Positions 802 through 24,780 of a DNA stretch of 42,781 nt are shown in pieces (position 1 is the first letter of the stretch; each line of letters opens with the position of its first letter). The notes beneath the pieces were generated by a model. That model was not told where the DNA came from. It worked only from the letters and a program-made list of their open reading frames with translations, and did no database searches. Origin of the DNA: an uncultured Prevotella sp. (GTDB taxonomy: Bacteria; Bacteroidota; Bacteroidia; Bacteroidales; Bacteroidaceae). The stretch spans positions 1-42,781 of the forward strand of contig CAKQMS010000026.1 of assembly GCA_934254985.1 (NCBI GenBank), read 5' to 3'. The position numbers and the translations under genes are program-made.

Positions 802-6305
<5,504 letters not shown>

Positions 6306-6341: not shown

Positions 6342-8333
6342 TTAGAGAGGCTTGTACTCTACGAATGCCTCCATAGCCTCGTAGCATGCCAAGCCCAACT
6401 TGTCGTAAAGACTTGCTGTTGCACGGTTGCGGTCCTCAGCTCTCTGCCAGAACAAACGCTCGTCGTTGCCAAGGAATGGTGCGCTCTCCATCTGTGACTG
6501 ATGCTTGAGAATAGAGTTTCTCTTTGCTCTCAACTCCTCAGGGCTCAATGGCACACACATTTCGATATTCTCGATTTCCCATTCTGCCCATGCACCACGA
6601 TACATCCAGATGCGGCAATCCTTAAGCCATTCAGCTCCAGCCTTCTTCTCTTCGTCGATGGCTGCGAGTACAGCGTCGGTACACTTCTTGTGAGTTCCGT
6701 GTGGGTCAGCAAGGTCGCCTGCAACATAAATCTGATGAGGCTTAACCTTCTGCAAAAGTGCTCTTACAACCTCAACATCCTTTTCGGTCATAGGCAACTT
6801 CTCAATCTTACCACTCTCATAGAAAGGCAAGTCGAGGAAGTGTACGTGGTCGAGTGGAATATCGTTGTAAGTACAAGCTGTACGAGCTTCACCACGGCGA
6901 ATCAATCCCTTGATAGTCAGTATGTCTCTTGTGTCGAAGTCGCTCTCCTTCTTGTTAGCGAAGAAGTTCTTTATCTCCTTATATTTGTTAGAGATAATGC
7001 TGTCCTTGGAATCTGCGAAGATCTGGTTGAAGCCATTGATGAAGTGCATGAATCTTGTTACTTCCTCGTCGCCAACAGCGATGTTACCAGAAGTCTCGTA
7101 TGCTACATGTACATCATGATTCTGCTGAACCAAGCGACGGATGGTACCGCCCATAGAGATAACGTCGTCGTCAGGGTGTGGAGAGAAAACGATAACCTTC
7201 TTAGGGTATGGATTAGCACGCTCAGGACGATATGTGTCGTCAGCATTAGGCTTACCACCAGGCCATCCTGTTATGGTGTGCTGCAAGTCGTTGAAAATCT
7301 TTATGTTAGCATTGTATGCTGAACCATAGAGAGCCAAGAGTTCGCTCAAGCCATTCTCGTTGTAATCCTTGTTAGTAAGCTTCAAGATAGGTTTGCCGAT
7401 CTTCTGGCAGAGCCATACCAATGCAGAGCGTACCAACTTGTCGGTCCATTGGCAAGATGTTACGAGCCAAGGGTGTTCGATGCGAGTAAGACGAGCTGCT
7501 GCACCAAGATCGAGCACTACCTGCACATTTGGATGAGTCTGGAGGAATGATGCTGGCAGAGTGTCGGTGATAGAATTCTCTATAACCTTCTGCATGATTT
7601 CTGCCTTTTCCTCACCCCAAGCTGTAAGGTAAATAGCCTTAGCAGAGAGTAGGGTAGCTATACCCATTGTCAATGAGCATGGAGGGATTGTTTCCTTAGT
7701 CTTTTCGCTTATTTCCATCTCTTCACGTGAGGTGTTGCCAATAAGGATAAGACGTGTTGCCGACTGAAGACCAGAACCAGGCTCGTTGGCTGCAATGTTT
7801 CCTGAGCGACCAATACCGATGAGAGCAACATCCAAACCACCGAAGGTCTTTATGCGCTGCTCATACAAGCGGCAGCAATCCTGAACAGCATCCTGAGCTA
7901 CAAAGCCGTCAAGAGTAAAGATGTTCTGCTCTTCTACATCTACGTGGTTGAGGAAGCGCTCCTTCAACTGGTTGATAGTGCGGATGGAGCTATCTTTCTG
8001 CAAAGGATAATACTCGTAAGCATTGAAAATAACTACGTTACGGAAGCTTAATGCTTTTTTCTCGTAACGACGAATAAGCTCGTGGTAAACAGCATTGAGC
8101 GATGAACCAGTGCCCAAAGCCATTACATAGAATTTGCCTTCACGCTGTGCAGCCTTAATACCAGCTTCGATGCCGTCAGCTACATGGCTTGCACCTTCAG
8201 CCATAGAAGCGAAGATGTCGGTATGTATCTTCTCCATTCTGGAGATTTCTGAATATTCTACAGTCGTCTTTGGCTTGTAGAATTCTACAGGTACTTTGTT
8301 TAGTACTATTTCTGAACTAAGATTAAGTCTCAT
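6342..8333 (-). CDS. NagB-like domain fused to LmbE/PIG-L deacetylase domain
   Basis: This 663-residue cytoplasmic protein has two parts. Residues about 30-330 have the glucosamine-6-phosphate deaminase/isomerase fold, including the phosphate loop GTGSS (74-78). Residues about 375-640 form an LmbE/PIG-L N-deacetylase domain, with the zinc and catalytic motif PHPDD (385-389) and the later ligand motif DPHGTH (543-548) intact. Proteins like this are usually annotated as glucosamine-6-phosphate deaminase. However, the positions matching E. coli NagB D72, D141 and H143 are Y106, S177 and N179; only the E148 equivalent (E184) remains. I infer that the NagB half binds sugar phosphate but does not deaminate, and that the LmbE half may remove the N-acetyl group. 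The gene sits between nagB and GH20 in an operon that lacks nagA. Domain identities are fairly sure; the function is inferred. Confidence 0.85.
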   Translation of the reverse strand: MRLNLSSEIVLNKVPVEFYKPKTTVEYSEISRMEKIHTDIFASMAEGASHVADGIEAGIKAAQREGKFYVMALGTGSSLNAVYHELIRRYEKKALSFRNVVIFNAYEYYPLQKDSSIRTINQLKERFLNHVDVEEQNIFTLDGFVAQDAVQDCCRLYEQRIKTFGGLDVALIGIGRSGNIAANEPGSGLQSATRLILIGNTSREEMEISEKTKETIPPCSLTMGIATLLSAKAIYLTAWGEEKAEIMQKVIENSITDTLPASFLQTHPNVQVVLDLGAAARLTRIEHPWLVTSCQWTDKLVRSALVWLCQKIGKPILKLTNKDYNENGLSELLALYGSAYNANIKIFNDLQHTITGWPGGKPNADDTYRPERANPYPKKVIVFSPHPDDDVISMGGTIRRLVQQNHDVHVAYETSGNIAVGDEEVTRFMHFINGFNQIFADSKDSIISNKYKEIKNFFANKKESDFDTRDILTIKGLIRRGEARTACTYNDIPLDHVHFLDLPFYESGKIEKLPMTEKDVEVVRALLQKVKPHQIYVAGDLADPHGTHKKCTDAVLAAIDEEKKAGAEWLKDCRIWMYRGAWAEWEIENIEMCVPLSPEELRAKRNSILKHQSQMESAPFLGNDERLFWQRAEDRNRATASLYDKLGLACYEAMEAFVEYKPL

Positions 8334-8367
8334 GGTTCTTTGTGTTATTTGATTGATTTATAGATGA

Positions 8368-9159
8368 TTACAGGTTGTCCTTTTCGATATCCTTGAAATA
8401 GCGATAGGTTCCAACTTTCAACTCATCTGTAGCAAGTTCGTCACAAACGATAATGCCATGCTGGTGTAGCTGCAATGCGCTGATAGTCCACTCCTGAGTA
8501 ACAGGACCTTCGATGGCAGCCTGCAAAGCACGAGCCTTGTTGTGGCCGTTGCAAAGAATCATCACTTCCTTAGCTGCCATTACGGTGCCAACACCTACAG
8601 TAAGAGCTGTGCTTGGTACAGCGTTCATGTCGCCACCGAAGAAACGTGAGTTAGCGATGCGAGTATCAGTAGTAAGAGTCTTTACTCGTGTGCGAGAGGT
8701 GAGTGAAGAGAATGGTTCATTGAAAGCAATGTGACCATCAGGACCGATACCGCCAATAAAGAGGTCGATACCACCAACTTCTTCAATCATCTTTTCATAG
8801 TTCTTGCACTCCTCTTCCAAGTTCTCGGCATTACCATTAAGAATATGAATATTCTCCTTAGGGCAGTCGATGTGGTTGAAGAGGTTGTTTGCCATAAATG
8901 AGTGATAGCTTTCTGGGTGGCTTTCAGGTAATCCAACATACTCATCCATGTTGAAGGTGAGCACATGCTTAAACGAAACTTCGCCAGCCTTCACAGCTTT
9001 TACGATTTCTGCATACATACCCATAGGTGATGAACCTGTAGGCAAACCCAAAACAAAAGGTTTTTCTGCTGTTGGTTTGAAGGCATTGATAGTCTCCACT
9101 ACATGACGAGCAGCCCAACGTGAGAGCTCTTCATAGTTTTTTTCAATAATTACGCGCAT
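8368..9159 (-). CDS. nagB: Glucosamine-6-phosphate deaminase NagB
   Basis: This 263-residue protein has the usual NagB length and aligns with E. coli numbering without shift. It carries the phosphate loop LPTGSSP (39-45), D72 in NMDEY, and D141/H143/E148 in [13 protein letters not shown]. All catalytic residues are present. The enzyme converts glucosamine-6-phosphate to fructose-6-phosphate and ammonia, linking amino-sugar catabolism to glycolysis. It is the second gene of the minus operon: the ROK kinase precedes it by 66 bases and the NagB-like/LmbE fusion follows after 34. It provides a sharp internal contrast with the neighbouring fusion protein, which has lost the same residues. Confidence 0.95.
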
Positions 9160-9225: not shown

Positions 9226-10191
9226 TTATAGTTCCCAAGCTATGGCTGAAGCACCCAAGACTGCTGCTTTGGCACCATCTAAGCCACTCTTTAGGAATTT
9301 TGCCTTACCTTTATATAATGAGAGCACATTCTCATTATATGCTTCCTCCATAGGACGGAAGAGTAGGTCGCCTGCCTGTGCCAATCCTCCGAAGAAGATG
9401 AAAGCCTCTGGACTGAGGAAGGTTGCGATGTTTGCACATGCAACACCAATTCTTCTACCCGTTTGGCGGAAAACCTCTTGCGCCATAGCATCGCCAGCCA
9501 TAGCGGCTTTATATACTTCGTATGATGAGAGTTCCTCTCTTGGAATATCTCTTAATGATGTAGGCTCTGTTGAATCTTCCAACATTGCCACAGTGGTGCG
9601 AACCACACCTGTTGCTGAGCAATAAGTCTCTAAGCAACCTTTTCTGCCGCATCCGCATGGTCTACCATCTGGTTCTACAACCATGTGACCAAGTTCGCCG
9701 GCAAAACCATCGCAACCATAAATAAGTTGACCGTTGGCTACAATACCCGAACCAACACCTGTTCCCAAGGTTAGCTCTACGAAGTTTTTCATGCCAACAG
9801 CTTCGCCATATATCATTTCGCCCATAGCTGCAGCGTTTGCATCATTGGTTATGGCTACAGGAATATTCAAACGGCTAGCAAACATGTCTGCCAAAGGTAC
9901 AACACCTTTAGCCCATGCCAAGTTAGCTGCTTGCTCAATTGTTCCATTGTAGTAGTTTCCACCAGGAGCACCGATACCCATGGCATGAATCTTCTCCATG
10001 CCACCTACCTGCTCTACGATTTGCATCACTGCCTTAACAGAATCCTCAACGTATGCTTCTACGTTTTGGTATCCTTGAGTCTTGATAGAGGTAGTGGTCA
10101 ATACTTTACCTTCTCTATCGATGATGCCAAACACGGAATTAGTTCCGCCCAAATCCAGGCCGATTACTAATGACTTTGCGCCGTATTCCAT
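9226..10191 (-). CDS. ROK-family sugar kinase (probable GlcNAc/glucose kinase)
   Basis: The protein is 321 residues from the chosen ATG at 10191; the frame stays open to an ATG at 10254, but the extra 21 residues are unlike the family. The N-terminal ATP motif LDLGGTN, the catalytic aspartate in ITNDANAAAMGE, the glycine-rich LTLGTGVGSG and the ROK zinc motif CGCGRKGCLE are all present, so it should be an active kinase. As first gene of an operon with GH20 and NagB, its likely substrate is free GlcNAc, giving GlcNAc-6-phosphate. Glucokinase or N-acetylmannosamine kinase activity cannot be excluded from sequence. Its promoter lies about 115 bases upstream of the start. Confidence 0.9.
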   Translation of the reverse strand: MEYGAKSLVIGLDLGGTNSVFGIIDREGKVLTTTSIKTQGYQNVEAYVEDSVKAVMQIVEQVGGMEKIHAMGIGAPGGNYYNGTIEQAANLAWAKGVVPLADMFASRLNIPVAITNDANAAAMGEMIYGEAVGMKNFVELTLGTGVGSGIVANGQLIYGCDGFAGELGHMVVEPDGRPCGCGRKGCLETYCSATGVVRTTVAMLEDSTEPTSLRDIPREELSSYEVYKAAMAGDAMAQEVFRQTGRRIGVACANIATFLSPEAFIFFGGLAQAGDLLFRPMEEAYNENVLSLYKGKAKFLKSGLDGAKAAVLGASAIAWEL

Positions 10192-10306
10192 ATTCCGATA
10201 CTTTGTCTTTGAAGTTGATTTGTGATACCTATATAATAGGTGTATTAACTTCACTTAATCAATTTCTTTATTAATGATTGCTTAGTTACTAAAATATTTT
10301 ATTTTG

Positions 10307-10621: not shown

Positions 10622-11830
10622 ATGAAGTCAGACTTACTAAAATATATTAGAAAGATAAATTCCAAGCCTTCTGCACAGCGCAGATTGTTGGAGCAATTTA
10701 TCTCTAATGGAGCTTCAACAATCCCTGAGATGTCGAAGGGGATTGGCGTGAGTCTGCCTACTGCTACTACCGCTCTCAATGACCTGATCAAGGCTGGTCT
10801 CGTTCGCGAGGTGGGAAAGAGAGATAACTCTTCTGGTCGCATTCCAATGGAGTACGACTTGGTTCCGACGGCAGGCTACTTTGTTGGTGTAAATCCAGAG
10901 ATGGATTGTTTAGCACTTGCAGCAACCGATTTCTGTGGGAATCTGGTAACAGAAAAGATAAGAATACCCTATACATATGAAAACACACCTGAGAGTTTGG
11001 AAAAACTTAGCGCTATAGTAAATGACTTTATCGCAGGTCTTCCATTCGGCAAAGAGGAAATCCTACAGGTTTGTGTGAATGTTGCAGAACGTGTGAATCC
11101 TTTCGAGGGTAGAGCATATAACATGTATACATTCCTGGATAAATCTCTTGCCGAAGTACTCACAGGATTAATCCAACTTCCAGTTTGCATAGAGAATGAT
11201 ACTCGAAGCATGGCTTTCGCAGAATTCTGCAAAGGATGTTGCAAAGGAATGAAAGATGTAATCTTCGTCAACATCTGCTGGGGCTTGGGAATCGGAATTA
11301 TCATCGACGGTAAACTCTACTATGGTAAGTCGGGATATTCTGGTGAATTTGGTCACATGACTGCCTACAACAACAACATTATCTGCCATTGCGGTAAGAT
11401 AGGATGTATTGAAACAGAAGTTTCGGGCAGAGCTCTCAAGAGAAAGTTGACACAGAAGATCCTTGAAGGAAAAGTCTCAATACTTTCCGATAATGTTTTA
11501 AATAAGAAACAAGAACTCTCGTTGCATGATATCTTGGATGCCATTGCTAAAGAAGATGTGCTTAGTGTAGCAACTTTACAACAAATAGCCGACGAGCTCG
11601 GCAAGCAGTTGGCTGGCATCATCAATATCTTCAACCCAGAGATGTTGGTAGTAGGAGGTGAGATGTCGGCAACAGGCGACTACTTGACATTACCTGTCAA
11701 CATGGGAATCAAAAAACATTCGCTCAACATCATGAACGAAGATTCTCAGATTGTCACCTCTGAACTCAAAGGACTCGCCGGTATCACAGGCGCTTGCCTC
11801 ATGGCAAGACACAGACTCCTAAATGAATGA
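10622..11830 (+). CDS. ROK-family transcriptional repressor (NagC/XylR-type)
   Basis: This 402-residue protein has an N-terminal winged helix-turn-helix (about 12-75; the recognition region includes VSLPTATTALNDLIKAGLV) joined to a ROK sugar-sensing domain (about 80-400). The zinc motif CHCGKIGCIE and the sugar-binding END motif are kept. The ATP-binding DxGxT motif at the start of the ROK domain is missing (FVGVNPEMD instead). This is the pattern expected of a sugar-responsive repressor rather than a kinase. It is divergent from the kinase-nagB operon and upstream of the fucosidase and SusC/D genes, so it is the natural controller of both arms. The inducer is probably an amino sugar or its phosphate. 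No hybrid two-component system or ECF sigma pair is present nearby. Confidence 0.9.
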   Translation: MKSDLLKYIRKINSKPSAQRRLLEQFISNGASTIPEMSKGIGVSLPTATTALNDLIKAGLVREVGKRDNSSGRIPMEYDLVPTAGYFVGVNPEMDCLALAATDFCGNLVTEKIRIPYTYENTPESLEKLSAIVNDFIAGLPFGKEEILQVCVNVAERVNPFEGRAYNMYTFLDKSLAEVLTGLIQLPVCIENDTRSMAFAEFCKGCCKGMKDVIFVNICWGLGIGIIIDGKLYYGKSGYSGEFGHMTAYNNNIICHCGKIGCIETEVSGRALKRKLTQKILEGKVSILSDNVLNKKQELSLHDILDAIAKEDVLSVATLQQIADELGKQLAGIINIFNPEMLVVGGEMSATGDYLTLPVNMGIKKHSLNIMNEDSQIVTSELKGLAGITGACLMARHRLLNE

Positions 11831-11929: not shown

Positions 11930-13372
11930 ATGAAGAAGTCTCTTCTCTTCGCGTTTTTACTGGGAACAGCTATGACAGCTACAGCCCAGCGCAACGCCAA
12001 CCAGGTGGAACCTGTTCTACCTATCCCTACTGCCAAGCAAGTGGAATGGCAAAAGTTAGAAACTTACGCCTTTATCCATTTTGGTCTTAACACCTTTAAT
12101 GATAAGGAGTGGGGATATGGCAACACAGACGTGAAGACCTTCAATCCTACAAAATTGGATTGCGAACAATGGGCTAAGACCTTGGTTGCAGCAGGAATGA
12201 AAGGAGTAATCCTTACCGCCAAACATCACGACGGTTTCTGCCTTTGGCCTACACACACTACCGACTATTGCATCCGCAATACACCTTATAAGAATGGTGA
12301 AGGTGACTTGGTAGGCGAACTCTCCAAAGCTTGCAAGAAATACGGATTGAAGTTTGGAGTTTACCTCTCGCCTTGGGATAGAAACCAAGCAAGTTACGGT
12401 TCTCCATATTACGTTAAATTCTATCATCGCCAACTCACAGAATTGCTTAGCAACTACGGTGAACTCTTCGAAGTTTGGTTTGATGGAGCCAATGGTGGTG
12501 ATGGTTGGTATGGCGGAGCAGAAGAAAAGAGAACTATTGACCGAAGAAACTACTACAACTTCCCACGAATCTTCGAAATTGTAGATAGCCTTCAACCAAA
12601 AGCCACAGTATTTGGCGATGGTGGTCCAGGATGCCGCTGGGTAGGCAATGAAAATGGTTTTGCTGGCGAAACTTGCTGGTCGATGATACCTGCAAATACA
12701 GTTTTCCCAGGATTCAAGAACTATAAGCAGCTCCAGTATGGATGGGAAGACGGAAATCAGTGGACTCCAGCCGAGTGTGATGTATCAATCAGACCAGGAT
12801 GGTTCTACCACGAGAGCGAAGATGGCAAAGTGAAGAGTGTTGACGACCTCTGCAATCTCTACTACCGAAGTGTAGGTCACAATGCAACAATGCTTCTCAA
12901 TTTCCCAGTAGATAAAAATGGTCTTATCCACCCTGTAGACTCAGCAAACGCTGTTAATTTCCACAAAAAGATACAGCAAGAGTTGGCAGTTGACCTTTTG
13001 AAAGGTGTAACTCCTAAAGTTGACAGCCAGCAAGGCAAAAATGGAGGAAAGAATATCACCGACGGCAACTACGACACCTTCTGGGCTTCAAAGAAAGTAA
13101 AAGGAGCAAGCATTGAGTTTCAACTTGGCAAGGCAAAACAGATTTCACGCCTTATGCTTCAAGAGTACATTCCGTTGGGACAACGTGTAAAAGCCTTCTC
13201 GGTATACTACCTGCAAGGAAAAGAATGGGTGAAACTCGATCCTAATGAAGAAACAACAACTATCGGCTACAAGCGTATACTACGCTTTGATGAAATAACA
13301 ACCAATGGCATACGCGTCGTATTTGATGATGCAAAGGGATGCCCTGTAATTAATTCTGTTTCAGCATATTAA
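11930..13372 (+). CDS. GH29 alpha-L-fucosidase with C-terminal F5/8-type domain
   Basis: This 480-residue exported enzyme has a signal peptide ending near residue 19 (TATA-Q). The GH29 catalytic barrel spans about 30-340. HFGLNTF (50-56), KHHDGF (98-103) and the nucleophile D185 in EVWFDGANG mark the active site. The C-terminal 130 residues resemble a discoidin/F5-8C carbohydrate-binding domain (KNITDGNYDTFW at about 369-380). The domain layout suggests the branched-linkage (alpha-1,3/1,4) type of GH29, but I cannot prove it from sequence. It would remove fucose from Lewis-type or core positions so that GH2 and GH20 can proceed. It starts 99 bases after the repressor gene, and a GH16 remnant follows directly. 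Confidence 0.93.
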   Translation: MKKSLLFAFLLGTAMTATAQRNANQVEPVLPIPTAKQVEWQKLETYAFIHFGLNTFNDKEWGYGNTDVKTFNPTKLDCEQWAKTLVAAGMKGVILTAKHHDGFCLWPTHTTDYCIRNTPYKNGEGDLVGELSKACKKYGLKFGVYLSPWDRNQASYGSPYYVKFYHRQLTELLSNYGELFEVWFDGANGGDGWYGGAEEKRTIDRRNYYNFPRIFEIVDSLQPKATVFGDGGPGCRWVGNENGFAGETCWSMIPANTVFPGFKNYKQLQYGWEDGNQWTPAECDVSIRPGWFYHESEDGKVKSVDDLCNLYYRSVGHNATMLLNFPVDKNGLIHPVDSANAVNFHKKIQQELAVDLLKGVTPKVDSQQGKNGGKNITDGNYDTFWASKKVKGASIEFQLGKAKQISRLMLQEYIPLGQRVKAFSVYYLQGKEWVKLDPNEETTTIGYKRILRFDEITTNGIRVVFDDAKGCPVINSVSAY

Positions 13373-13381
13373 TATATAAAT

Positions 13382-13561
13382 ATGCATTTAGAAAAAGAAA
13401 AATTGCAATTCCCATTCTGTGACTTCAAGTTCAATCTTATTCTTAACTGCTCACTCGGTGGAACCCTCAATGGCAACAAAACCTGGGCTGGTGAGATTCA
13501 CGACGAGGAACTACCTGTAGAAATGTGGGTAGACTGGGTGAAAGTGGTAAAAACAAAATAG
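13382..13561 (+). pseudogene. C-terminal remnant of a GH16 endo-glycanase
   Basis: A 59-codon open frame fills the gap between the fucosidase and SusC. From about residue 9 on, its product reads like the final strands of a GH16 enzyme: LILNCSLGGTLNG, then AGEIHDEELPVEMWVDW and VKVV. These correspond to the family's usual ILNLAxGG...IDDSxFPxxMxVDYVRVY ending. The catalytic ExDxxE region and everything before it are absent, and the fucosidase stop lies only nine bases upstream. I read it as a deletion remnant of a GH16 gene, perhaps an endo-acting O-glycanase or beta-galactanase. A tiny functional gene is possible but unlikely. Confidence 0.75.
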
Positions 13562-13616
13562 TTAACTCAATATGAACAACAATTCGAATTTATTCACTAA
13601 CATTATATTTAACCTT

Positions 13617-16610
13617 ATGGACAAAAGAGCAAATTTGTATTTTGCGGCTCTCTTAGGTGCTATGTCTCCTATATGTGCCGCCCCTGCATTTGCAAACCAG
13701 ACCTATTCGGCAACTGCATTGCAGCAACAGAGTGCTTGCACTGGTACAGTAACTGATTCTAATGGTGAGCCTGTTATTGGCGCAACTATCAGAATTGAAG
13801 GTATGACCGGTGGTACAGTAACTGACATCGACGGTAACTTTACCCTTAACAAGGTAGCTAAGGGTGCTAAGCTTACAGTTACTTATGTTGGTTTCACGGC
13901 ACAGACCGTTACATGGACAGGCGCTCCATTGAGCATTACTTTGCAAGATGACGCTAACATGTTGGAAGAGACCGTGGTAATCGGTTACGGTACAGTTAAG
14001 AAAGCTGACTTGGCAGGTTCTGTAGCTGTTATGGATGGCAAGGCATTTAAGGATCAGCCAGTTCCTCGTATCGAAGATGCACTCAACGGACGTATGTCAG
14101 GTGTACAGGTAATGTCAAGTGGTGTTCCTGGTGGTGCAATGAAGATTCGTGTACGTGGTACAAGCTCTGTAAACAAGAGCAACGACCCTCTCTATGTAGT
14201 AGACGGTATCGTACGTGAAACAGGTCTTGAGGGTATCAACCCTGAGGATATCCAGAGCATCCAGGTTTTGAAGGACGCTTCTTCTACAGCTATCTATGGT
14301 GCACGTGGTGCTAATGGTGTTGTAATGGTACAGACCAAGACTGGTAAGGCAGGTGCTACACAGGTAACATTTGATGCTACATTTGGTGTATCTAACGCTT
14401 ACAACTTGCCAGAGGCAATGAGCGCTAAGCAGTATGCACAGGCTTTGGTTGATTACAAGGGTGTGTCTCAAGATGCAGTTCAGGGTTACTTGAACGGTAG
14501 CAAGTCTGGTATCGATTGGATGGATCAGCTCACTCAGACTGGTATTACACAGAACTATAAGGTGGCAGTTTCTCAAGGTAACGAGAAAACTCAGACTTAC
14601 TTCTCTGCCAACTATATGGATCAGAAGGGTGTAATCACAGATACCAATTCTAAGCGTTATGCAGTTAAGGCTAACATGCACAACAAGATTTTCGATTGGT
14701 TGGAGATGACTACCGATATCAACCTTTCTCAGACAGACAACTCTGGTGCAAGTTTCGTTCAGAACCAGGAAAACCCTATCTGGGTAGGATTGAACTACTC
14801 TCCTACAATGGAGATGATGGATGCTAATGGTAATTATAACAAGGACCCATATAACTGTATCCAGAACAACCCTTATGGAATCGTTCATGGTACTCAGAAT
14901 GATCGTAAGCGTACAATGGTTAATGGTCACGTTGATTTGAAGTTCAACATCCTCAAGGGCTTGACATTCACAACAACCAACGCTATCGACTACAATGATT
15001 ATAAGTCGTACAGCTTCACTTCTGCAAAGGTTAACAAAGCTGGTAACAACATGGGTAATAGCGATGCAACTGTTACTGCTTTGCAGTCTACCAACAACTT
15101 GACCTATATGGGCAAGTGGGGTGAGCACAACTTGACAGCTACTGGTGTATGGGAAGTTTCTTCTAACGAGGTTCGTCGTTTGGGCTTAACAGGTACTGGT
15201 CTTGCTCACGAGCAATTGGGTTACTGGAATGTTGCAGATGCAACTACGAAGACTCCTTCAAACGGTTATAGCAAGTGGACAATGCTCTCTGGTGTAACTC
15301 GTTTAATGTACAACTACGCTGACCGTTATATGTTGACTGGTACATTCCGTGCCGATGGTTCAAGCCGCTTTACTAACAAGAAGTGGGGTTACTTCCCATC
15401 TGTAGCTGCTGCATGGACCGTTTCAAACGAAAAGTTCTGGAAGCCTCTCAGCAATGCTGTTGAATACTTGAAGATTCGTGCAAGCTACGGTATCATTGGT
15501 AACCAGGATATCTCTCCTTATTCTACTCTTGGTGCATTGGGTACTACAGGTTTCTCATATGGTACAAATCAGTCATATACAGGTTACTGGGCAAATGGTC
15601 TTGCAACACCTGACTTGACATGGGAGAAGGTTCATCAGTTCGACCTTGGTATTGATCTCGGCTTCTTCGGCAACCGTTTGAGCGTTAGCTTAGACGTATT
15701 TAGCAAGAAGACTAAGGACGCTCTCTTGCAGACATCTTCTCCTGGCTACTTGGGCGGAACAAGATATTGGGTTAACGCTGGTGAGGTTAGCAACAAGGGA
15801 TTCGATGTTACTATCAATGGTCAGATTCTCCAGACTAAGGATTGGAAATGGTCTACAACCTTGAACGCAAGCTACATCAAGAACGAGGTTACAAAGATGA
15901 CTGCTGAGGATCCTGTCATTTATGGTCAGACTCCTTCTCCAGGTACTATTGATCCATGTACTATCATCAAGGAAGGTGAGGCTATCGGTACATTCTACGG
16001 CTTCAAGTGGGCTGGTGTAAAAGAGAATGACAAGGGTCAGTTTGTAGATATGTATTATGCTGCAGATGGTTCTATAACAGCTACTCCTGATGCTTCTAAG
16101 GATCGCTTCGTATTGGGTCGTTCAAATCCTGATGTAACATTCGGTTGGAACAATAGCGTTTCATATAAGAACTGGGACTTCAACGTATTCTGTAATGCAG
16201 CATTCGGTGCTAAGCGTTTGAACATGGTACGTTTCGCAATGAACTCAATGGTAGGTGCTTCAATGTTTGTAACTGATAAGGATTACTTCAACAATGTTGG
16301 TGTAACAATGCCTACAATGGGTGCAGAGAACAAGACTTATGGTAACTCAGACAAGTGGCTTGAGAAGGCTGACTACTTCCGTTGCGAGAATATCAGCATC
16401 GCTTACACATTCCCACGTAGCGTAACTAAGTTGGCAGACATCCGTCTTTCACTCTCAGCTCAGAACCTCTTCACAATTACAAGCTATAAGGGTATTGACC
16501 CTGCAGGTGGTTCATTCGGTGGTGACAATGTTGACCGTGACAATGGTTTGGATATGGGTGCTTATCCTAATCCACGTACCATCACAATGGGCGTTCGTGT
16601 AAACTTCTAA
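13617..16610 (+). CDS. SusC-like TonB-dependent outer-membrane transporter
   Basis: The protein is 997 residues from the ATG at 13617, which places a normal signal peptide at the N-terminus (ending AAPAFA). An in-frame ATG at 13572 would add 15 residues before it and is less likely. A carboxypeptidase-regulatory-like domain (about 40-115; GTVTDSNGEPVIGATIR) is followed by the TonB-box-like EETVVIGYGTVKK, a plug domain (about 135-240) and a long beta-barrel ending in the aromatic residue typical of outer-membrane proteins (GVRVNF). It imports oligosaccharides captured by SusD. Together with SusD it defines the locus as a polysaccharide utilisation locus. The glycan is inferred from neighbours, not from this sequence. 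Confidence 0.95.
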   Translation: MDKRANLYFAALLGAMSPICAAPAFANQTYSATALQQQSACTGTVTDSNGEPVIGATIRIEGMTGGTVTDIDGNFTLNKVAKGAKLTVTYVGFTAQTVTWTGAPLSITLQDDANMLEETVVIGYGTVKKADLAGSVAVMDGKAFKDQPVPRIEDALNGRMSGVQVMSSGVPGGAMKIRVRGTSSVNKSNDPLYVVDGIVRETGLEGINPEDIQSIQVLKDASSTAIYGARGANGVVMVQTKTGKAGATQVTFDATFGVSNAYNLPEAMSAKQYAQALVDYKGVSQDAVQGYLNGSKSGIDWMDQLTQTGITQNYKVAVSQGNEKTQTYFSANYMDQKGVITDTNSKRYAVKANMHNKIFDWLEMTTDINLSQTDNSGASFVQNQENPIWVGLNYSPTMEMMDANGNYNKDPYNCIQNNPYGIVHGTQNDRKRTMVNGHVDLKFNILKGLTFTTTNAIDYNDYKSYSFTSAKVNKAGNNMGNSDATVTALQSTNNLTYMGKWGEHNLTATGVWEVSSNEVRRLGLTGTGLAHEQLGYWNVADATTKTPSNGYSKWTMLSGVTRLMYNYADRYMLTGTFRADGSSRFTNKKWGYFPSVAAAWTVSNEKFWKPLSNAVEYLKIRASYGIIGNQDISPYSTLGALGTTGFSYGTNQSYTGYWANGLATPDLTWEKVHQFDLGIDLGFFGNRLSVSLDVFSKKTKDALLQTSSPGYLGGTRYWVNAGEVSNKGFDVTINGQILQTKDWKWSTTLNASYIKNEVTKMTAEDPVIYGQTPSPGTIDPCTIIKEGEAIGTFYGFKWAGVKENDKGQFVDMYYAADGSITATPDASKDRFVLGRSNPDVTFGWNNSVSYKNWDFNVFCNAAFGAKRLNMVRFAMNSMVGASMFVTDKDYFNNVGVTMPTMGAENKTYGNSDKWLEKADYFRCENISIAYTFPRSVTKLADIRLSLSAQNLFTITSYKGIDPAGGSFGGDNVDRDNGLDMGAYPNPRTITMGVRVNF

Positions 16611-16638
16611 ATTAAACAATCTAAAAACTGTAATAATT

Positions 16639-18492
16639 ATGAAAACTAAGAAATTATTATATATGGGTTGTCTCATGGCAGCATCCTTGTTTACCTTCTC
16701 GTCTTGTGGCGACTTCTTGGATGAGGAACCAAAGGGACTATTATCTCCAGAAAACTTCTTCGCAAGTGAAGAGGATCTTAATGCAAGTGTTAACGCATTG
16801 TATGATAGAATCAACCAGACACAGAGCTGGACAAACCCTATGTACCCACAGTGGCAGGGTGATGATATCACTGCTAACCCAGGTTCTAACAAACAGGCTT
16901 GTGCAGCCCTCGATGCTTTTGCATCTGATGGTGCTAACAAGGGTGTAACAGATGCATGGAATCAGCACTACTCTGTAATCAAAGCAGCTAACTTGATTAT
17001 TGCTGGTGCAAATAATGCACAGGTAGATCAGGCTAAGATTAATGTAGCTTTGGGTAATGCTCACTACTGGCGTGCTTACGCTTACTTCTATTTGGTTCGC
17101 GTATTTGGTCCTATTCCATTGATTACATCAACTAATACAGATCAGTTGACAGTAACTCCAGAAAGCATTGAAAAAGTATATGAGTTAATCGTTAAGGACT
17201 TGCAGGATGCAGTTAATGAGCTTCCTACAAAGTATGAAAAGGATCCAGCTCGCTTGTTCGGTGTAGACGTATGGACTACTAAACAGGCAGCACAGTCTAC
17301 ATTGGCAGCTGTTTATATGTCAATGGCTGGTTATCCTCTCAACAAGGGTACAGAGTATTACAAACTCGCTGCCGAGCAGGCTAAGGCTGTCATCGATGGC
17401 AATGGTACTTATGGCTTCATCTTGAATCAAAATTGGAAGGATGTTTACTCAATGGGTAACAACTACAACATGGAAACCGTGGTTGGTATCAACAACGACG
17501 CCAAAGGTTGGTGGGATCATGACTCACAGCTTTCATCTTGCTGCCGCTTCGAAGGTCTCGGCGATAGTGGCTGGGGCGACGCTTGGGGTGAAATAGCATT
17601 CTGGAAGAGATACCCAGAGGGTGCACGTAAGGATGCCATCTATGCTCCTAAGGTAACAATGCAGGAAGGCAATAAAATTACAGAGTCTTATGACTGGTGG
17701 GAAATCTCACCTACTGATGTTTGGAAAGCAGAGGATATGCCTTCAGATCCTAAGAAGTTGGAAGAAAAGAAAGCTGAGCTTGACAAGATTATCGATAAAG
17801 AAACTAAGGATATCGCTGCAGGTAAGTTAACAGAGGAAACCAGAACTAAGAGAAAGGTTAATGGCGTTTATGAATACCATAAGTACTGGAAGGGTAAGCC
17901 ATTCGTTGAGGCTAACCACCCAATGTTCTGTATCTTTACTGTAAATTGTGATGAGAATGGTAATATGCTTCGTGAGGCTTACGATTATACTAAGCCTAAC
18001 TGGGCTGGTATGATTAACGACCGTCGTCACAACCTTATCCGCTATTCAGAGGTTCTCCTTTGGTATGCAGAGAGCGCAGCTCGCGCAGGTCTTTCTGACT
18101 TGACTCTTGCAAAGAAGTGCTTGAAGGACGTTCGTAAGCGTGCCGTTACAGATTACGAAAACGTAACACTTAGCGATGGTACTACCGTTAAGATCGATAA
18201 CATGAGCGCTGCTCAGCTTGCTGATGCTTGTTACATCGAGCACGGATGGGAAGTTGCAGGAAACTGGGTATCAATGGTTACTCGTCGCGCTGATGAGCTT
18301 CGTATGAACGAACTCCAGAAGAATTTCAACTACCGTGTTGCTAATGCTCCTCTTGTTGTTGCAAAGGATGCTACAGGCAATGATATTAAGGTAAAGGAGC
18401 AGGTTTCTGTTTCAGGTTCTTGGTCAGAGAGCAGAATCTACTGCCCATATCCAACATCTGACGGTGAGAAGAATCCTAACTTGAAGAACTAA
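16639..18492 (+). CDS. SusD-like surface glycan-binding lipoprotein
   Basis: This 617-residue protein starts with a lipoprotein signal and lipobox (LFTFSSC, Cys about 23) followed by GDFLDEEPKG, the characteristic mature start of SusD proteins. TPR-like helices (HYWRAYAYFYLVRVFGPIPLI at about 141-161) and the C-terminal RagB/SusD region are recognisable. A charged stretch near residues 373-405 (many Lys and Glu) looks like an extra surface loop. The gene starts 28 bases after SusC and ends at a strong terminator. No SusE/SusF-like surface proteins follow, which is common in minimal loci. It presents glycans to the SusC pore. Confidence 0.94.
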   Translation: MKTKKLLYMGCLMAASLFTFSSCGDFLDEEPKGLLSPENFFASEEDLNASVNALYDRINQTQSWTNPMYPQWQGDDITANPGSNKQACAALDAFASDGANKGVTDAWNQHYSVIKAANLIIAGANNAQVDQAKINVALGNAHYWRAYAYFYLVRVFGPIPLITSTNTDQLTVTPESIEKVYELIVKDLQDAVNELPTKYEKDPARLFGVDVWTTKQAAQSTLAAVYMSMAGYPLNKGTEYYKLAAEQAKAVIDGNGTYGFILNQNWKDVYSMGNNYNMETVVGINNDAKGWWDHDSQLSSCCRFEGLGDSGWGDAWGEIAFWKRYPEGARKDAIYAPKVTMQEGNKITESYDWWEISPTDVWKAEDMPSDPKKLEEKKAELDKIIDKETKDIAAGKLTEETRTKRKVNGVYEYHKYWKGKPFVEANHPMFCIFTVNCDENGNMLREAYDYTKPNWAGMINDRRHNLIRYSEVLLWYAESAARAGLSDLTLAKKCLKDVRKRAVTDYENVTLSDGTTVKIDNMSAAQLADACYIEHGWEVAGNWVSMVTRRADELRMNELQKNFNYRVANAPLVVAKDATGNDIKVKEQVSVSGSWSESRIYCPYPTSDGEKNPNLKN

Positions 18493-18522
18493 AACTCAGT
18501 GGGTACTCACTCACAACATAGA

Positions 18523-18550
18523 GGGGATGCCAAACGGCATCCCCTTTTTT
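18523..18550 (+). terminator. Strong intrinsic terminator after SusD
   Basis: A perfect 9-bp GC-rich stem (GGGGATGCC / GGCATCCCC) has a 4-base loop and is followed by TTTTTT. It separates the SusC/D transcript from the sulfatase cluster, so the latter needs its own promoter or readthrough. Confidence 0.9.
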
Positions 18551-18623
18551 CTAATTAAGCAATCTGTTTTATGACTAACTAAACAATCAGTTTTATTGCT
18601 AACTAAACAATCAGTTTTTATGG
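18551..18623 (+). repeat. Three tandem 24-25-bp repeats overlapping a sulfatase start
   Basis: Units at 18551-18574, 18575-18598 and 18599-18623 share the core CTAAYTAARCAATCWGTTTT. The third copy contains the proposed start codon of the first sulfatase (ATG 18620-18622), and a partial CTAAC follows it. Copies two and three are nearly identical; copy one has diverged. Confidence 0.85.
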
Positions 18624-20311
18624 CTAACAATAATAAAAACCAAATCAATCGCTCATTGCTGGCTATGGCAGCCCTGCAGGCAATGCCATTGTCTATATTT
18701 GCACAGAATGCAGGAGATAGACCTAATATATTATATATAATGTGTGACGACCATGCTATGCAAGCCATTAGCGCATACGGTAGTCCAATATCTAAACTTG
18801 CTCCTACACCAAATATCGACCGACTTGCAGAAAGAGGTATGAAGTTTAACGAGGCTTTTGTTGAAAATTCACTCTCTACTCCAAGTCGTGCTTGTTTGAT
18901 GACTGGTTTGTATAGTCACCAGAATGGTCAGCGCCAGTTGGCAGAAGGTATCGACACCACAAAGACCTTCTTCTCTGAGATGTTGCAAGATGCAGGCTAT
19001 GAGACAGCAGTTGTGGGCAAGTGGCATATGTCGTGCACTCCTAAGGGCTTCGATTATTATCATGTGTTGAACAATCAAGGACAGTATTATAACCCAACTT
19101 TCGCATCTACTGGAAATTATGGCGACTACAAGCAAGAGATGGGCTATGCTACCGACCTCATCACCGACCATGCTATCGAATACCTTGACCAAAGAGACCA
19201 AAACAAGCCTTTCTGCTTGTTGGTTCACCACAAGGCTCCTCATCGTATTTGGATGCCAAATACCAAATATGTGAGCAAGTATGCCAATGTAGACTTCCCA
19301 TTGCCAGAAACATTCTGGGATGATTATGAGTCGCGTGGTTCTGCTGCTTCTACTCAGAAAATGTCTATCGACAAATATATGGAGATGGTGCGCGACCTTA
19401 AGGTTCCTGAGATGTACGACCCTTCGACTCCAGAAGGACGCGACTCTTATGCTGGACTACAGAGCGAGCTCGGCCGTATGACTGCAGAGCAACGCGAAGC
19501 TATCGACGCATATTATATGCCACGCAACCGTGAATTCTTGAGCAAGAATCTCACAGGCAAGGAACTAATAGAATGGAAATATCAAAACTATATTCGTGAC
19601 TATATGGCTGTTATCGCTTCTGTAGATGAGAGCGTAGGCAGACTGTTGGATTATCTCGATAGCCACAACCTTACCGATAACACCATCATCGTATATACCT
19701 CCGATCAAGGTTTTTATATGGGTGAGCATGGATGGTTTGATAAGCGATTTATGTATGAGGAGTCTTTCCACACTCCATTAATAATAAGCTATCCTAAGCA
19801 TATACAGCCACAGAGCGTATGCAACCAGATGGTGCAGAATATCGACTTTGCTCCTACATTCCTCGATTTGGCAGGAGTAGAAAAGCCTAAGTATATGCCT
19901 GGCACATCATTGCAACCTTTGTTTGCAGGCAAACCTGTGAAGAAATGGCGCAAGAGCCTTTACTATCATTATTACGACTATCCTACATATCACCTTGTTC
20001 GTAAACATGACGGTGTGCGCACAGAGCAGTATAAGCTCATACATTTCTATGGAAAGGGTGGTGAGAGAGCCGTTGCTGAAAACAAATATCAGCGTGAGCC
20101 TGGAACATCAGAGTATGGTTGCTTCCAGTATCTTAAGTCTATCAACTATATCAGCGACGATGCCGACATCGACTACTACGAGCTTTACGACATCAAGGCA
20201 GACCCTAACGAGATGCACAACATCTATGGTCAGCCAGGTATGCAGAAGGTAGAGAAAGAAATGAAGAAGATTCTGGCTACATATCGCAAGAATCTGAATG
20301 TAGATGAATAA
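18620..20311 (+). CDS. Serine-type sulfatase, similar to GlcNAc-6-O-sulfatases
   Basis: The protein is 563 residues from ATG 18620; an upstream in-frame TTG at 18596 lies in a tandem repeat and would spoil the signal peptide (ending near SIFAQ). The type I sulfatase signature STPSR (86-90) is followed by ACLMTG, so S86 would become formylglycine. Metal ligands are DD (43-44), and DQGFYMGEHG lies further on. The long middle segment and the GEHGWFDKRFMYEES motif recall, from memory, the mucin-desulfating N-acetylglucosamine-6-sulfatase group; the substrate is a suggestion only. It heads a cluster of sulfatase, sulfatase, maturase, sulfatase and sialidase. The gap to the next gene is 24 bases. 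It is probably periplasmic. Confidence 0.92.
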   Translation: MANNNKNQINRSLLAMAALQAMPLSIFAQNAGDRPNILYIMCDDHAMQAISAYGSPISKLAPTPNIDRLAERGMKFNEAFVENSLSTPSRACLMTGLYSHQNGQRQLAEGIDTTKTFFSEMLQDAGYETAVVGKWHMSCTPKGFDYYHVLNNQGQYYNPTFASTGNYGDYKQEMGYATDLITDHAIEYLDQRDQNKPFCLLVHHKAPHRIWMPNTKYVSKYANVDFPLPETFWDDYESRGSAASTQKMSIDKYMEMVRDLKVPEMYDPSTPEGRDSYAGLQSELGRMTAEQREAIDAYYMPRNREFLSKNLTGKELIEWKYQNYIRDYMAVIASVDESVGRLLDYLDSHNLTDNTIIVYTSDQGFYMGEHGWFDKRFMYEESFHTPLIISYPKHIQPQSVCNQMVQNIDFAPTFLDLAGVEKPKYMPGTSLQPLFAGKPVKKWRKSLYYHYYDYPTYHLVRKHDGVRTEQYKLIHFYGKGGERAVAENKYQREPGTSEYGCFQYLKSINYISDDADIDYYELYDIKADPNEMHNIYGQPGMQKVEKEMKKILATYRKNLNVDE

Positions 20312-20335
20312 TTAGAAAATTAAAGTCTCGACTTT

Positions 20336-21874
20336 ATGAAAAAAACAAGCAAGGCAATATTTCTAACGGGGGTAGGCATGACATGCCTACCTTCCTTGGT
20401 TTGGGCAAAGCAGAATGTGCAGCAACCAAACATCCTCTTCATCCTTTGCGACGATATGGGATATGGCGACCTGGCTTGCTATGGTCAGCCGTATATTCAC
20501 ACACCAAATATCGACCAGATGGCACGCGAGGGTATGCGCTTCACTCAGGCATACGCAGGTTCGCCAGTTTCTGCACCATCGCGAGCTACCATTATGACAG
20601 GCCAGCATACTGGACATACCCACGTTAGAGGCAACAAAGAATATTGGCGCGGAGTGCCAATGGTGAAGTATGGAGAAAACGAAGAGTATTCTGTAGTAGG
20701 TCAGGAACCTTACGACCCACAGCATAAGATACTGCCAGAGATACTCAAAGACAAAGGCTATCGTACAGGAGTGTTTGGTAAGTGGGCAGGAGGCTACGAG
20801 GGTTCGGCTTCTACTCCAGATAAGCGTGGCGTAGATGAATTTTATGGCTACATCTGCCAATTTCAAGCCCACCTATATTATCCTAACTTCCTGAATCGCT
20901 ATAGCAAATCGTTGGGTGATACCGCTGTGGTGAGAGAGGTGATGGAGCAAAACATCCAGTATCCGATGTTTGGCAAAGACTATTTTAAGCGCACGCAATA
21001 TTCTGCCCGTATCATCCACGACAAAGCTTTGGAGTGGATAGACAAGCAAGATGCACAACATCCTTTTGTAGGATTCTTGACTTATACCTTGCCACATGCC
21101 GAACTTGCACAACCTGAAGACTCTATCTTGGAGAACTATCAGAAGCAGTTCTTTAACGATAAGACTTGGGGCGGATGGGAAGATTCAAGATACAATTCTT
21201 CTGTTCATACCCACGCACAGTTTGCAGGCATGATAACTCGTCTCGACCAATATGTAGGCGAAGTATTCGCAAAACTTAAGGCTAAAGGTTTGGACAAGAA
21301 TACCGTGGTAATCTTTACTTCCGACAATGGTCCTCACGAAGAGGGTGGTGCCGACCCAGAATTCTTTGGACGTGATGGTAAGCTAAAGGGATTGAAGCGC
21401 CAATGCTATGAGGGTGGCATACGCATACCTTTCATTGCATGGTGGCCAGAGCATATCAAGGCAGGAGTAGTCAACGACACCCAGTTTGCGTTCTACGACC
21501 TAATGCCAACATTCTGCGACTTGGCAGGAATTAAAAACTTTGCTAAGCGCTACACCAATAAGAAATTGGCTGGCGATGGCTTCGATGGTATCTCTATTGC
21601 TCCTACACTCTTGGGCAACGATGCAGAACAAAAACACCACGAATATCTATATTGGGAATTCCATGAGACCGACCAAATAGGTGTGAGAAAAGGCGACTGG
21701 AAGCTCGTGGTAGAGAAAGGCGAACCTCGACTCTACAACTTGGCAACGGATATTCACGAAGATCACAATGTGGCAGCCGAACATCCTGAGCTGTTGGCAG
21801 AACTATTGGCAGCAATCTTAAAGGAGCATACCGATAGTCCAGACTTTCAGATCACATTACCACGATTCCCATAG
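20336..21874 (+). CDS. Serine-type sulfatase (arylsulfatase A family)
   Basis: This 512-residue exported protein has a signal peptide ending near residue 24 (LVWA). The signature SAPSR (79-83) is followed by ATIMTGQ, making S79 the residue to be converted to formylglycine. Metal ligands DD (39-40), the FGKWAGG lysine region and TSDNGPHEEGG are present. The C-terminal subdomain ends with the common LYNLATDIHEDHNVA stretch. The acceptor sugar cannot be read from the sequence; 3- or 6-O-sulfated galactose or GalNAc would suit the neighbouring galactosidase and hexosaminidase. It lies 24 bases after the first sulfatase and 22 bases before the maturase gene, indicating one transcript. Confidence 0.92.
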   Translation: MKKTSKAIFLTGVGMTCLPSLVWAKQNVQQPNILFILCDDMGYGDLACYGQPYIHTPNIDQMAREGMRFTQAYAGSPVSAPSRATIMTGQHTGHTHVRGNKEYWRGVPMVKYGENEEYSVVGQEPYDPQHKILPEILKDKGYRTGVFGKWAGGYEGSASTPDKRGVDEFYGYICQFQAHLYYPNFLNRYSKSLGDTAVVREVMEQNIQYPMFGKDYFKRTQYSARIIHDKALEWIDKQDAQHPFVGFLTYTLPHAELAQPEDSILENYQKQFFNDKTWGGWEDSRYNSSVHTHAQFAGMITRLDQYVGEVFAKLKAKGLDKNTVVIFTSDNGPHEEGGADPEFFGRDGKLKGLKRQCYEGGIRIPFIAWWPEHIKAGVVNDTQFAFYDLMPTFCDLAGIKNFAKRYTNKKLAGDGFDGISIAPTLLGNDAEQKHHEYLYWEFHETDQIGVRKGDWKLVVEKGEPRLYNLATDIHEDHNVAAEHPELLAELLAAILKEHTDSPDFQITLPRFP

Positions 21875-21896
21875 ACCATATTATATATAATATATT

Positions 21897-23120
21897 ATGA
21901 CTGACAACATAGCAACTCCATTTGCCAAGCCTCTGTATGTGATGCTGAAACCTGCAGGTGCGCATTGCAACTTGGCATGCAAATATTGTTATTACTTAGA
22001 AAAGAACAACCTCTACGACAAATCTCATCGCCATATTATGAGCGACGAGATGTTGGAGCAGTTCACACGAGAGTATATAGAGGCGCAAACCATGCCACAG
22101 GTGCTATTCACATGGCATGGTGGCGAACCATTGATGCGCTCCATTGATTTCTATAAGAAGGCGTTGGCTCTGCAAAAGAAATATGCACGAGGGCGCCGCA
22201 TAGATAATGTTATCCAAACCAATGGCACTATGCTAACAGACGAATGGTGTGAATTCTTTGCACAGAATAATTGGCTGGTTGGCATCTCTATCGATGGACC
22301 ACAGGAGTATCACGATCATTACCGACTAACCACCACGGGAAACCCTTCGTGGCAGAAGGTGATGCACGGCATAGAACTCTTGAAGAAGCATCATGTGGAA
22401 TGGAATGCTATGGCGGTGGTGAACGCATATAATGCCGACCATCCTTTGGAGTTTTATCATTTCTTTAAGGATAATGGTTGTCAGTATTTGCAGTTTACTC
22501 CTATCGTGGAACGACTCACTAAGCATCAGGATGGACGCACATTGGCAAGTCTTGCCGACAATCATGAGATTCCGCTTGCAGACTTCTCGGTGACGCCAGA
22601 GCAATGGGGCAACTTCCTTTGTGCTATCTTCGACGAGTGGGTGCACAATGATGTGGGCAAGATGTTTGTGGAAATCTTCGACTGCACTCTTGCCAACTGG
22701 ATGGGAGTGTTGCCAGGCATCTGTGCTTATTCAAAGAATTGCGGTCATGCAGGTGTTATGGAGCATAATGGCGATGTATATTCCTGCGACCACTTTGTGT
22801 TCCCTGAATATAAGCTTGGCAACATTCGCGACCATACCTTGATAGAAATGCTATATGGCGACAAGCAGCATGCCTTTAGTCGACTGAAGCATACCTCATT
22901 GCCTCGCCAATGCAAGGAGTGTGATATGGAGTTTGCATGTCATGGCGAATGTCCAAAGAATCGCTTCGAGAAAGATAAGTATGGCGAGCCGGGTTTAAAC
23001 TATCTCTGCAAAGGCTACTACCAATATTATTCGCATGTGGCACCATATATGGACTTTATGAAGCGCGAACTACAAGCACAGCGTCCGCCTGCTAACATCA
23101 TGGAAGCTTTGAAGAAGTAA
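21897..23120 (+). CDS. Anaerobic sulfatase-maturating radical SAM enzyme (anSME)
   Basis: This 407-residue cytoplasmic protein has the radical SAM cluster motif CNLACKYC (C24, C28, C31). Its C-terminal SPASM region carries further cysteines (CAYSKNCGHAGVMEHNGDVY, then SCDHF, and CKECDMEFACHGECPKNRF) that bind auxiliary iron-sulfur clusters. The family oxidises a Cys or Ser in sulfatases to formylglycine before export. Its position inside a block of three sulfatases that all have serine at the target position strongly supports that role. The last codons and stop fall in a 25-bp tandem repeat. A general peptide-modifying SPASM enzyme is the only alternative, and the context argues against it. 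Confidence 0.95.
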   Translation: MTDNIATPFAKPLYVMLKPAGAHCNLACKYCYYLEKNNLYDKSHRHIMSDEMLEQFTREYIEAQTMPQVLFTWHGGEPLMRSIDFYKKALALQKKYARGRRIDNVIQTNGTMLTDEWCEFFAQNNWLVGISIDGPQEYHDHYRLTTTGNPSWQKVMHGIELLKKHHVEWNAMAVVNAYNADHPLEFYHFFKDNGCQYLQFTPIVERLTKHQDGRTLASLADNHEIPLADFSVTPEQWGNFLCAIFDEWVHNDVGKMFVEIFDCTLANWMGVLPGICAYSKNCGHAGVMEHNGDVYSCDHFVFPEYKLGNIRDHTLIEMLYGDKQHAFSRLKHTSLPRQCKECDMEFACHGECPKNRFEKDKYGEPGLNYLCKGYYQYYSHVAPYMDFMKRELQAQRPPANIMEALKK

Positions 23121-23167
23121 CATCACGGATGCCTTGAAGAATTAACATCATGGAAGCTATGAAATAG
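23093..23167 (+). repeat. Three tandem 25-bp repeats spanning the anSME stop codon
   Basis: Units at 23093-23117, 23118-23142 and 23143-23167 have equal length, each beginning TAACATCA. They differ from one another at three to seven positions. The first unit codes for the end of anSME, and the second begins with its stop codon. The repeats fill most of the gap before the next sulfatase. Confidence 0.9.
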
Positions 23168-23205
23168 TAATTATCAAAAACCTCTATTCACTAACAATAA
23201 CCAAT

Positions 23206-24735: not shown

Positions 24736-24763
24736 AACGAGATAGAGTGAGATAGAAAAAGAA
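24724..24763 (+). repeat. 20-bp tandem duplication spanning a sulfatase stop codon
   Basis: AGAGTGAGATA occurs at 24724-24734 and again at 24744-24754, a 20-bp period. The first copy holds the final codons and stop of the third sulfatase. Confidence 0.7.
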
Positions 24764-24780
24764 ATCATAAAATTACCAAT

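Follow-up and report, generated by a model that had tools for sequence, protein, structure and literature searches.

How does a bacterium with an amino-sugar gene run that includes a sugar kinase and the deaminase NagB, but no nagA, remove the acetyl group of N-acetylglucosamine-6-phosphate (GlcNAc-6-P)? The question is raised by 42,781 nucleotides of DNA from an uncultured Prevotella sp. (GenBank assembly GCA_934254985.1, contig CAKQMS010000026.1, positions 1 to 42,781), the whole of which is here called the window. On its minus strand lies a run of five genes encoding, in order, a ROK-family kinase, NagB, a protein in which a NagB-like domain is fused to an LmbE-type (PIG-L) domain, a GH20 enzyme and a GH2 enzyme, with gaps of 66, 34, 36 and 14 bp between them. 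An initial annotation had remarked on the presence of the kinase and NagB without nagA, and a family search of the five proteins agrees in finding no NagA among them. The explanation that we consider best, and rather probable from the comparison of sequences, is that the fusion descends from a two-step enzyme, its NagB half having been lost as an enzyme and its LmbE half being a cytoplasmic deacetylase of GlcNAc-6-P, or of N-acetylglucosamine (GlcNAc) itself.

The two halves of the fusion

The fusion is encoded by an open reading frame at 6342-8333 (minus strand) that begins with ATG and specifies 663 amino acids. Pfam domains Glucosamine_iso and PIG-L/LmbE were located at residues 45-266 and 381-559, and the protein matches NCBIfam model NF002557 ('glucosamine-6-phosphate deaminase-like protein') over model positions 4-652 of 653 with a score of 1000.7 bits (cut-off 384). 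Its AlphaFold model has a mean confidence score (pLDDT) of 91.6. When the NagB-like half (residues 36-281; 7491-8228, minus strand) was aligned to the stand-alone NagB of the window (8368-9159, minus strand), the positions of D72, D141 and H143 were found to be occupied by Tyr, Ser and Asn (Y106, S177 and N179), with E148 (E184 in the fusion) and K208 retained. The stand-alone protein has all four of its catalytic residues (4/4), and the alignment thus bears out the contrast drawn between the two proteins in the initial annotation. Against the NagB equivalog model TIGR00502 (cut-off 236.9 bits) the fusion scores 171.6 bits, under the cut-off, a relative that keeps D72 (L083) scores 257.8 bits, and the stand-alone NagB scores 425.7 bits.

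The fixation of these changes was followed in the window copy together with the 80 nearest of 406 named relatives, by title nearly all Prevotellaceae. Tyr at position 72 and Asn at position 143 are fixed (81/81 copies), but Ser at position 141 is not, this position being Ile in 34, Met in 28, Ser in 12, Val in five, Ala in one and Asn in one. Loss of D141 was considered as a sign of inactivity and rejected: because Asn occupies this position in B. subtilis NagB (2bkv/2bkx), it is not diagnostic of deaminase activity, and it is also variable in fusions that keep D72.

The LmbE half (residues 377-663; 6345-7205, minus strand) matches PF02585 (PIG-L) with 65.4 bits (cut-off 28.2), and structure comparison showed a fold resembling BshB and diacetylchitobiose deacetylase. 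In an alignment of 123 homologs, from which seven of 130 listed sequences including the zinc-dead L143 described below are omitted, H386, D388 and D389 of the PHPDD motif and H548 of the DPHGTH motif are invariant and H545 is nearly so; both motifs had been reported as kept, and are. By their roles in the family, H386, D389 and H548 are the probable ligands of the predicted zinc site and D388 the probable catalytic residue. The zinc residues are intact in 210/211 aligned fusion sequences, a set that contains the window copy and five repeat fetches; L143 is the one exception.

Two forms of the fusion and the separate nagB

Within this set of 211 sequences D72 is kept in 109 and lost in 102. The D72-keeping copies have E148 and K208 in all cases and H143 in 108, with Thr, Ser, Asn or once Gln at position 141; since the B. 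subtilis deaminase has Asn there, these NagB halves may well be active. The 102 derived copies, among them that of the window and those of the 80 named relatives closest to it, have Tyr (94), Ser (four), Gly (two), Ala (one) or Asn (one) at position 72 and Asn at position 143 in 98. E73, N147, K208, S151 and R158 are retained in at least 99/102 derived copies, and the derived NagB half therefore keeps its fold and perhaps a ligand site.

The two forms differ in the company of a separate nagB. The forms were assigned in 123 Bacteroidota genomes, draft and metagenome assemblies in each of which one or two fusion copies were typed. A separate over-cut-off nagB is present in 14 of the 104 genomes in which D72 and H143 are kept and in 18 of the 19 in which either is lost (Fisher p 4e-12, uncorrected for kinship); the zinc site is intact in all 19. 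On a tree of the LmbE half, loss of the NagB residues appears as three changes, and in every pair the changed side is the one that has a separate nagB, although with only three pairs a sign test (median p 0.25) cannot reach significance and one of the events (G262) lies on a long branch whose placement is unsure. Separate nagB genes were counted from matches of at least 252 bits, and 43 phylum-sample genomes and 25 further ones (from the order sample, and G384) were rechecked; in the 43 no separate over-cut-off nagB was found except one 371-residue fragment at a contig end (G107). Pieces of G107 that seemed to be NagB alone were considered as a case of LmbE-half loss and dropped, as they end at contig ends. 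The halves of the G254 fusion lie at the ends of two contigs and were left unjoined and out of the residue counts.

The derived half also scores lower and has diverged faster. NagB halves from 25 genomes score 154-211 bits in the 13 that have lost D72 or H143 (G262 included) and 244-271 bits in the 12 that keep both, on either side of the nagB cut-off. At an LmbE-half identity of 0.80-0.85 the identity of the NagB half is 0.634 in the derived form vs 0.781 in the D72 form, and at 0.65-0.70 it is 0.440 vs 0.641. The NagB half of this clade is thus very probably no longer a deaminase. The contrary reading, that the altered residues still support deaminase or isomerase activity and the database name is right, would have to accommodate the replacement of D72 by Tyr, Ser, Gly, Ala or Asn and of H143 by Asn in 98/102 derived copies, the separate NagB in nearly all genomes with lost residues, and the faster divergence of a half that falls under the nagB cut-off; we regard it as very improbable.

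The opposite loss was seen in L143 (G261) and the related L234 (G384), in which the zinc ligands are gone (RPADD and GTR in place of the motifs), NLDEYY and GRSGHIGFNEPG are kept in the NagB half, and this half scores over the nagB cut-off. Both genomes have a nagA over cut-off and a separate nagB. A second, larger protein of about 780 residues with the same NagB-then-LmbE order was noticed at L229 (6047-8431, minus strand) and L230 (6106-8469, minus strand), with similar frames of 758-812 residues in 22/28 genomes. It keeps HIDEF and GPDGH, has Thr at the E148 position and carries a PHHDD motif; because it matches NF002557 with only 188-207 bits (cut-off 384), it appears to represent a distinct family that shares the architecture.

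These findings add to the initial annotation what it had missed, namely that most relatives appear bifunctional and that decay of the NagB half tracks a separate nagB. The ancestor of the fusion would have been a single polypeptide uniting a zinc deacetylase of the LmbE type with a NagB deaminase, converting GlcNAc-6-P to glucosamine-6-phosphate (GlcN-6-P) and on to fructose-6-phosphate. Among the Prevotellaceae and related groups the deaminase step may have passed to a separate NagB, after which the NagB half of the fusion would have lost its acid/base residues, leaving a cytoplasmic deacetylase. In the window, GlcNAc released by the GH20 enzyme would be converted to GlcNAc-6-P by the ROK kinase, its presumed substrate being GlcNAc, the acetate would be removed by the LmbE half (from GlcNAc-6-P in the first place, from free GlcNAc in the second), and the stand-alone NagB would yield fructose-6-phosphate and ammonia. 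The dead NagB half may serve as a scaffold, an oligomerisation part or a ligand-sensing part. It might also hold GlcNAc-6-P, as the initial annotation proposed; K208 and E73 are retained, but Arg172 is mostly replaced. A wider form of this proposal, to which we give an even chance, is that the family as a whole converts GlcNAc-6-P to fructose-6-phosphate within a single chain in Bacteroidota, with LmbE-type deacetylation replacing NagA, and that a stand-alone NagB or NagA frees the corresponding half to decay, the other half being retained, so that the family would mix bifunctional enzymes, pure deacetylases and pure deaminases.

The deacetylation step and the distribution of nagA

Absence of nagA was argued from the genomes of relatives. 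A nagA over cut-off was found in 0/8 close relatives, two of which gave only weak partial matches of 21-24 bits. A second LmbE/PIG-L protein was absent at E 0.001 from 11/11 derived-form genomes, and the fusion is therefore the only LmbE-type candidate there. BshC was found in 0/11 derived-form genomes vs 5/5 tested D72-form genomes. This absence makes a role in bacillithiol metabolism unlikely, and we give hardly any credence to a BshB-type deacetylase of low-molecular-weight thiols that became joined by chance to a NagB relic.

The partner domain counts in favour of the proposal, as NagB is the enzyme that follows deacetylation in the pathway. An alternative is that the LmbE half acts in the cytoplasm on GlcNAc, or on sugars of the chitobiose type, before any phosphorylation, the ROK kinase then phosphorylating glucosamine and NagB finishing, with the order of the steps reversed. 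The nearest solved LmbE enzymes (diacetylchitobiose deacetylase, BshB and MshB) act on unphosphorylated amino sugars or their conjugates, and the ROK kinase scores under its model cut-offs, its substrate being unassigned. On the other hand, the active-looking NagB half of most typed relatives fits GlcN-6-P as the product, and free glucosamine would have to leave the protein and return. We consider this order unlikely.

Several observations weigh against the fusion as GlcNAc-6-P deacetylase. It had been anticipated that the fusion would anti-correlate with nagA, and this does not hold in general. Of 247 Bacteroidota genomes, 100 have the fusion over cut-off and 34 have nagA over cut-off, or 42 when long weaker matches are included. 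Over-cut-off nagA is present in 18/100 fusion genomes (p 0.13), and the wider set in 24/100 (odds ratio 2.3, p 0.02); on the wider count the other genomes comprise 76 with only the fusion, 18 with only nagA and 129 that lack both. This is a weak positive link, the two genes co-occurring, if anything, above chance, and anti-correlation as a general rule was rejected at the level of the phylum. In an order-level sample of 119 genomes the fusion is present in 26 and nagA in eight. When only genomes that have a separate nagB are compared, exclusion is seen in the phylum sample (fusion only 19, nagA only 14, both 0, neither nine; nagA in 0/19 with the fusion vs 14/23 without) and not in the order sample, whose genome sets were sorted by hand (fusion only 13, nagA only three, both three, neither nine; 3/16 vs 3/12). 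With the samples combined, 30 such genomes have the fusion only, 17 nagA only and three both, and 18/68 (nine in each sample) have neither.

The proposal that the LmbE half is the missing deacetylase is supported by the kept zinc site and by the lack of nagA, of another LmbE protein and of BshC in the close or derived-form genomes, and is weakened by the presence of nagA in 2/19 genomes with a decayed NagB half (G273 and G358). The decayed fusion of G358 has two nagA-like genes just upstream, and a fusion of G076, whose zinc site is intact, directly follows an over-cut-off nagA within a sialic-acid-like run that also holds an N-acylglucosamine 2-epimerase, a sialate-type acetylesterase and a major facilitator superfamily (MFS) transporter. 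In these two genomes the deacetylase of the fusion is either redundant or acting on another sugar. In 6/24 genomes having both nagA and the fusion, no more than 1.5 kb separates nagA from a NagB-like gene scoring under the nagB cut-off (G179:C62, G211:C61, G166:C40, G170:C37, G198:C11 and G107:C14), which suggests, by inference, a parallel amino-sugar route, maybe for N-acetylgalactosamine (GalNAc).

Nor does a separate nagB always bring decay of the NagB half: the zinc-dead lineage has a separate nagB and yet an intact NagB half, and in all 14/104 genomes, as mentioned above, keep both. The zinc-dead copies represent one lineage, and nagA in 2/2 of them vs the 24/100 background gives p 0.06. 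Conversely the fusion L228 (G344; 6992-8980, minus strand) has a decayed NagB half although its genome, about 1.2 Mb in size, lacks a separate nagB; nearby are genes for SurE, a carbon-nitrogen hydrolase and a protein of the peptidyl-arginine deiminase type. Arg172, a phosphate-binding residue of E. coli NagB, is mostly replaced in both forms of the fusion, so that even the 'active' NagB halves are predictions. In PMC5127042, deletion of the chitin-locus 'nagB' of F. johnsoniae (Fjoh_4557), which may not be this fusion, left growth on chitin unchanged, and the authors ascribed this outcome to the three other nagB-like genes of the organism; expression of the protein did not succeed. F. johnsoniae also has a predicted NagA (Fjoh_3974).

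Gene neighbourhoods were counted at 55 of the 80 named loci; the other 25, which have less than 4 kb on one side or both, were dropped. A NagB-like gene lies within 5 kb of the fusion in 44/55, GH20 is near in 17/55 and, as a further adverse point, a ROK kinase is near in only 1/55. S. copri iA622 (L001/G001), the closest of the named relatives, has its nagB on another contig (G001:C39) and not beside the fusion; the order of kinase, nagB and fusion therefore varies among close relatives. Direct matching at D72-type loci placed GH20 near 7/64 fusions and NagB near 0/64. Among 117 neighbouring proteins of this form (seven of 124 picked were omitted for a size limit) nine were MFS transporters, seven had LacI-type binding domains and two were GH20, which gives no strong GlcNAc signature.

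These counts bear on a further alternative, that the fusion deacetylates another N-acetyl sugar (derived from N-acetylmannosamine, GalNAc or N-acetylmuramic acid, or of a sialic-acid branch), GlcNAc being used via an unrecognised enzyme or not at all. It would explain why nagA adjoins the fusion in G076 and G358, why many genomes have several fusion copies and why some nagB genomes lack both genes, and a limited literature search found no direct test of P. copri growth on GlcNAc. It sits less well with the frequent NagB-like neighbour, as NagB acts on GlcN-6-P, and with the GH20 gene that follows the fusion in the window. We judge it quite improbable. The accessible parts of PMC12506151 and PMC9120202 likewise hold no direct test of Prevotella on GlcNAc alone, and that of PMC5583593 includes no NagA replacement among its named predicted replacements.

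Setting in the window and known systems

The first gene of the run (9226-10254, minus strand, GTG start) matches PF00480 with 206.3 bits and TIGR00744 with 230.4 bits; because the latter is under its cut-off of 260.35, the substrate of this ROK-family kinase was left unassigned, although it likely makes a sugar 6-phosphate. Downstream of the fusion by 36 bp is the GH20 beta-N-acetylhexosaminidase (3963-6305, minus strand; PF00728, 387.1 bits), and the last gene encodes the GH2 beta-galactosidase-like protein (802-3948, minus strand; PF02836, 317 bits; PF02929, 223.6 bits). A divergent ROK-family regulator with a winged helix (10622-11830, plus strand; PF00480, 165.6 bits; PF13412) is NagC/Mlc-like and scores 165.9 bits against the NagC model, under the cut-off of 650. 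Beyond it, at 11930-26004 (plus strand), lies a polysaccharide-utilisation-like locus with an alpha-L-fucosidase, a SusC/SusD pair, three sulfatases and a BNR-repeat-like protein, which suggests that sulfated host glycans are targeted. A radical SAM/SPASM protein among the sulfatases may be a sulfatase-maturating enzyme.

If the proposed deacetylase role is correct, it would fill a missing amino-sugar step in Prevotella/Segatella, correct the database name of a very large family (at least 7998 matches) and add an LmbE-type deacetylase of a phosphorylated amino sugar, on which a literature search found no paper. The loss of opposite halves of one enzyme in different lineages would also constitute a natural experiment.

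Among known systems, the window protein clearly belongs to NF002557/PRK02122, with which it shares its full-length architecture. That model assigns no function, the four relatives with a readable protein name are all called 'glucosamine-6-phosphate deaminase', and the window clade differs in having lost deaminase residues. With NagA (TIGR00221) the fusion would share the reaction and the place in the pathway. NagA belongs to the amidohydrolase family, which is unrelated to LmbE, and a family search gave no NagA match in the fusion, which is therefore at most an analogue. Relative to NagB of E. coli (1dea) and B. subtilis (2bkv), D72 and H143 are replaced in the fusion, and the Asn at 141 of the B. 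subtilis enzyme shows that this position by itself is not critical. With the diacetylchitobiose deacetylase of Thermococcales (Dac) and with BshB and MshB the LmbE half has in common the zinc motif, the fold and, if our reading is right, the N-deacetylation of amino sugars; the solved members are single-domain chains that act on unphosphorylated sugars or conjugates, whereas the fusion carries a NagB half and sits in a run with nagB.
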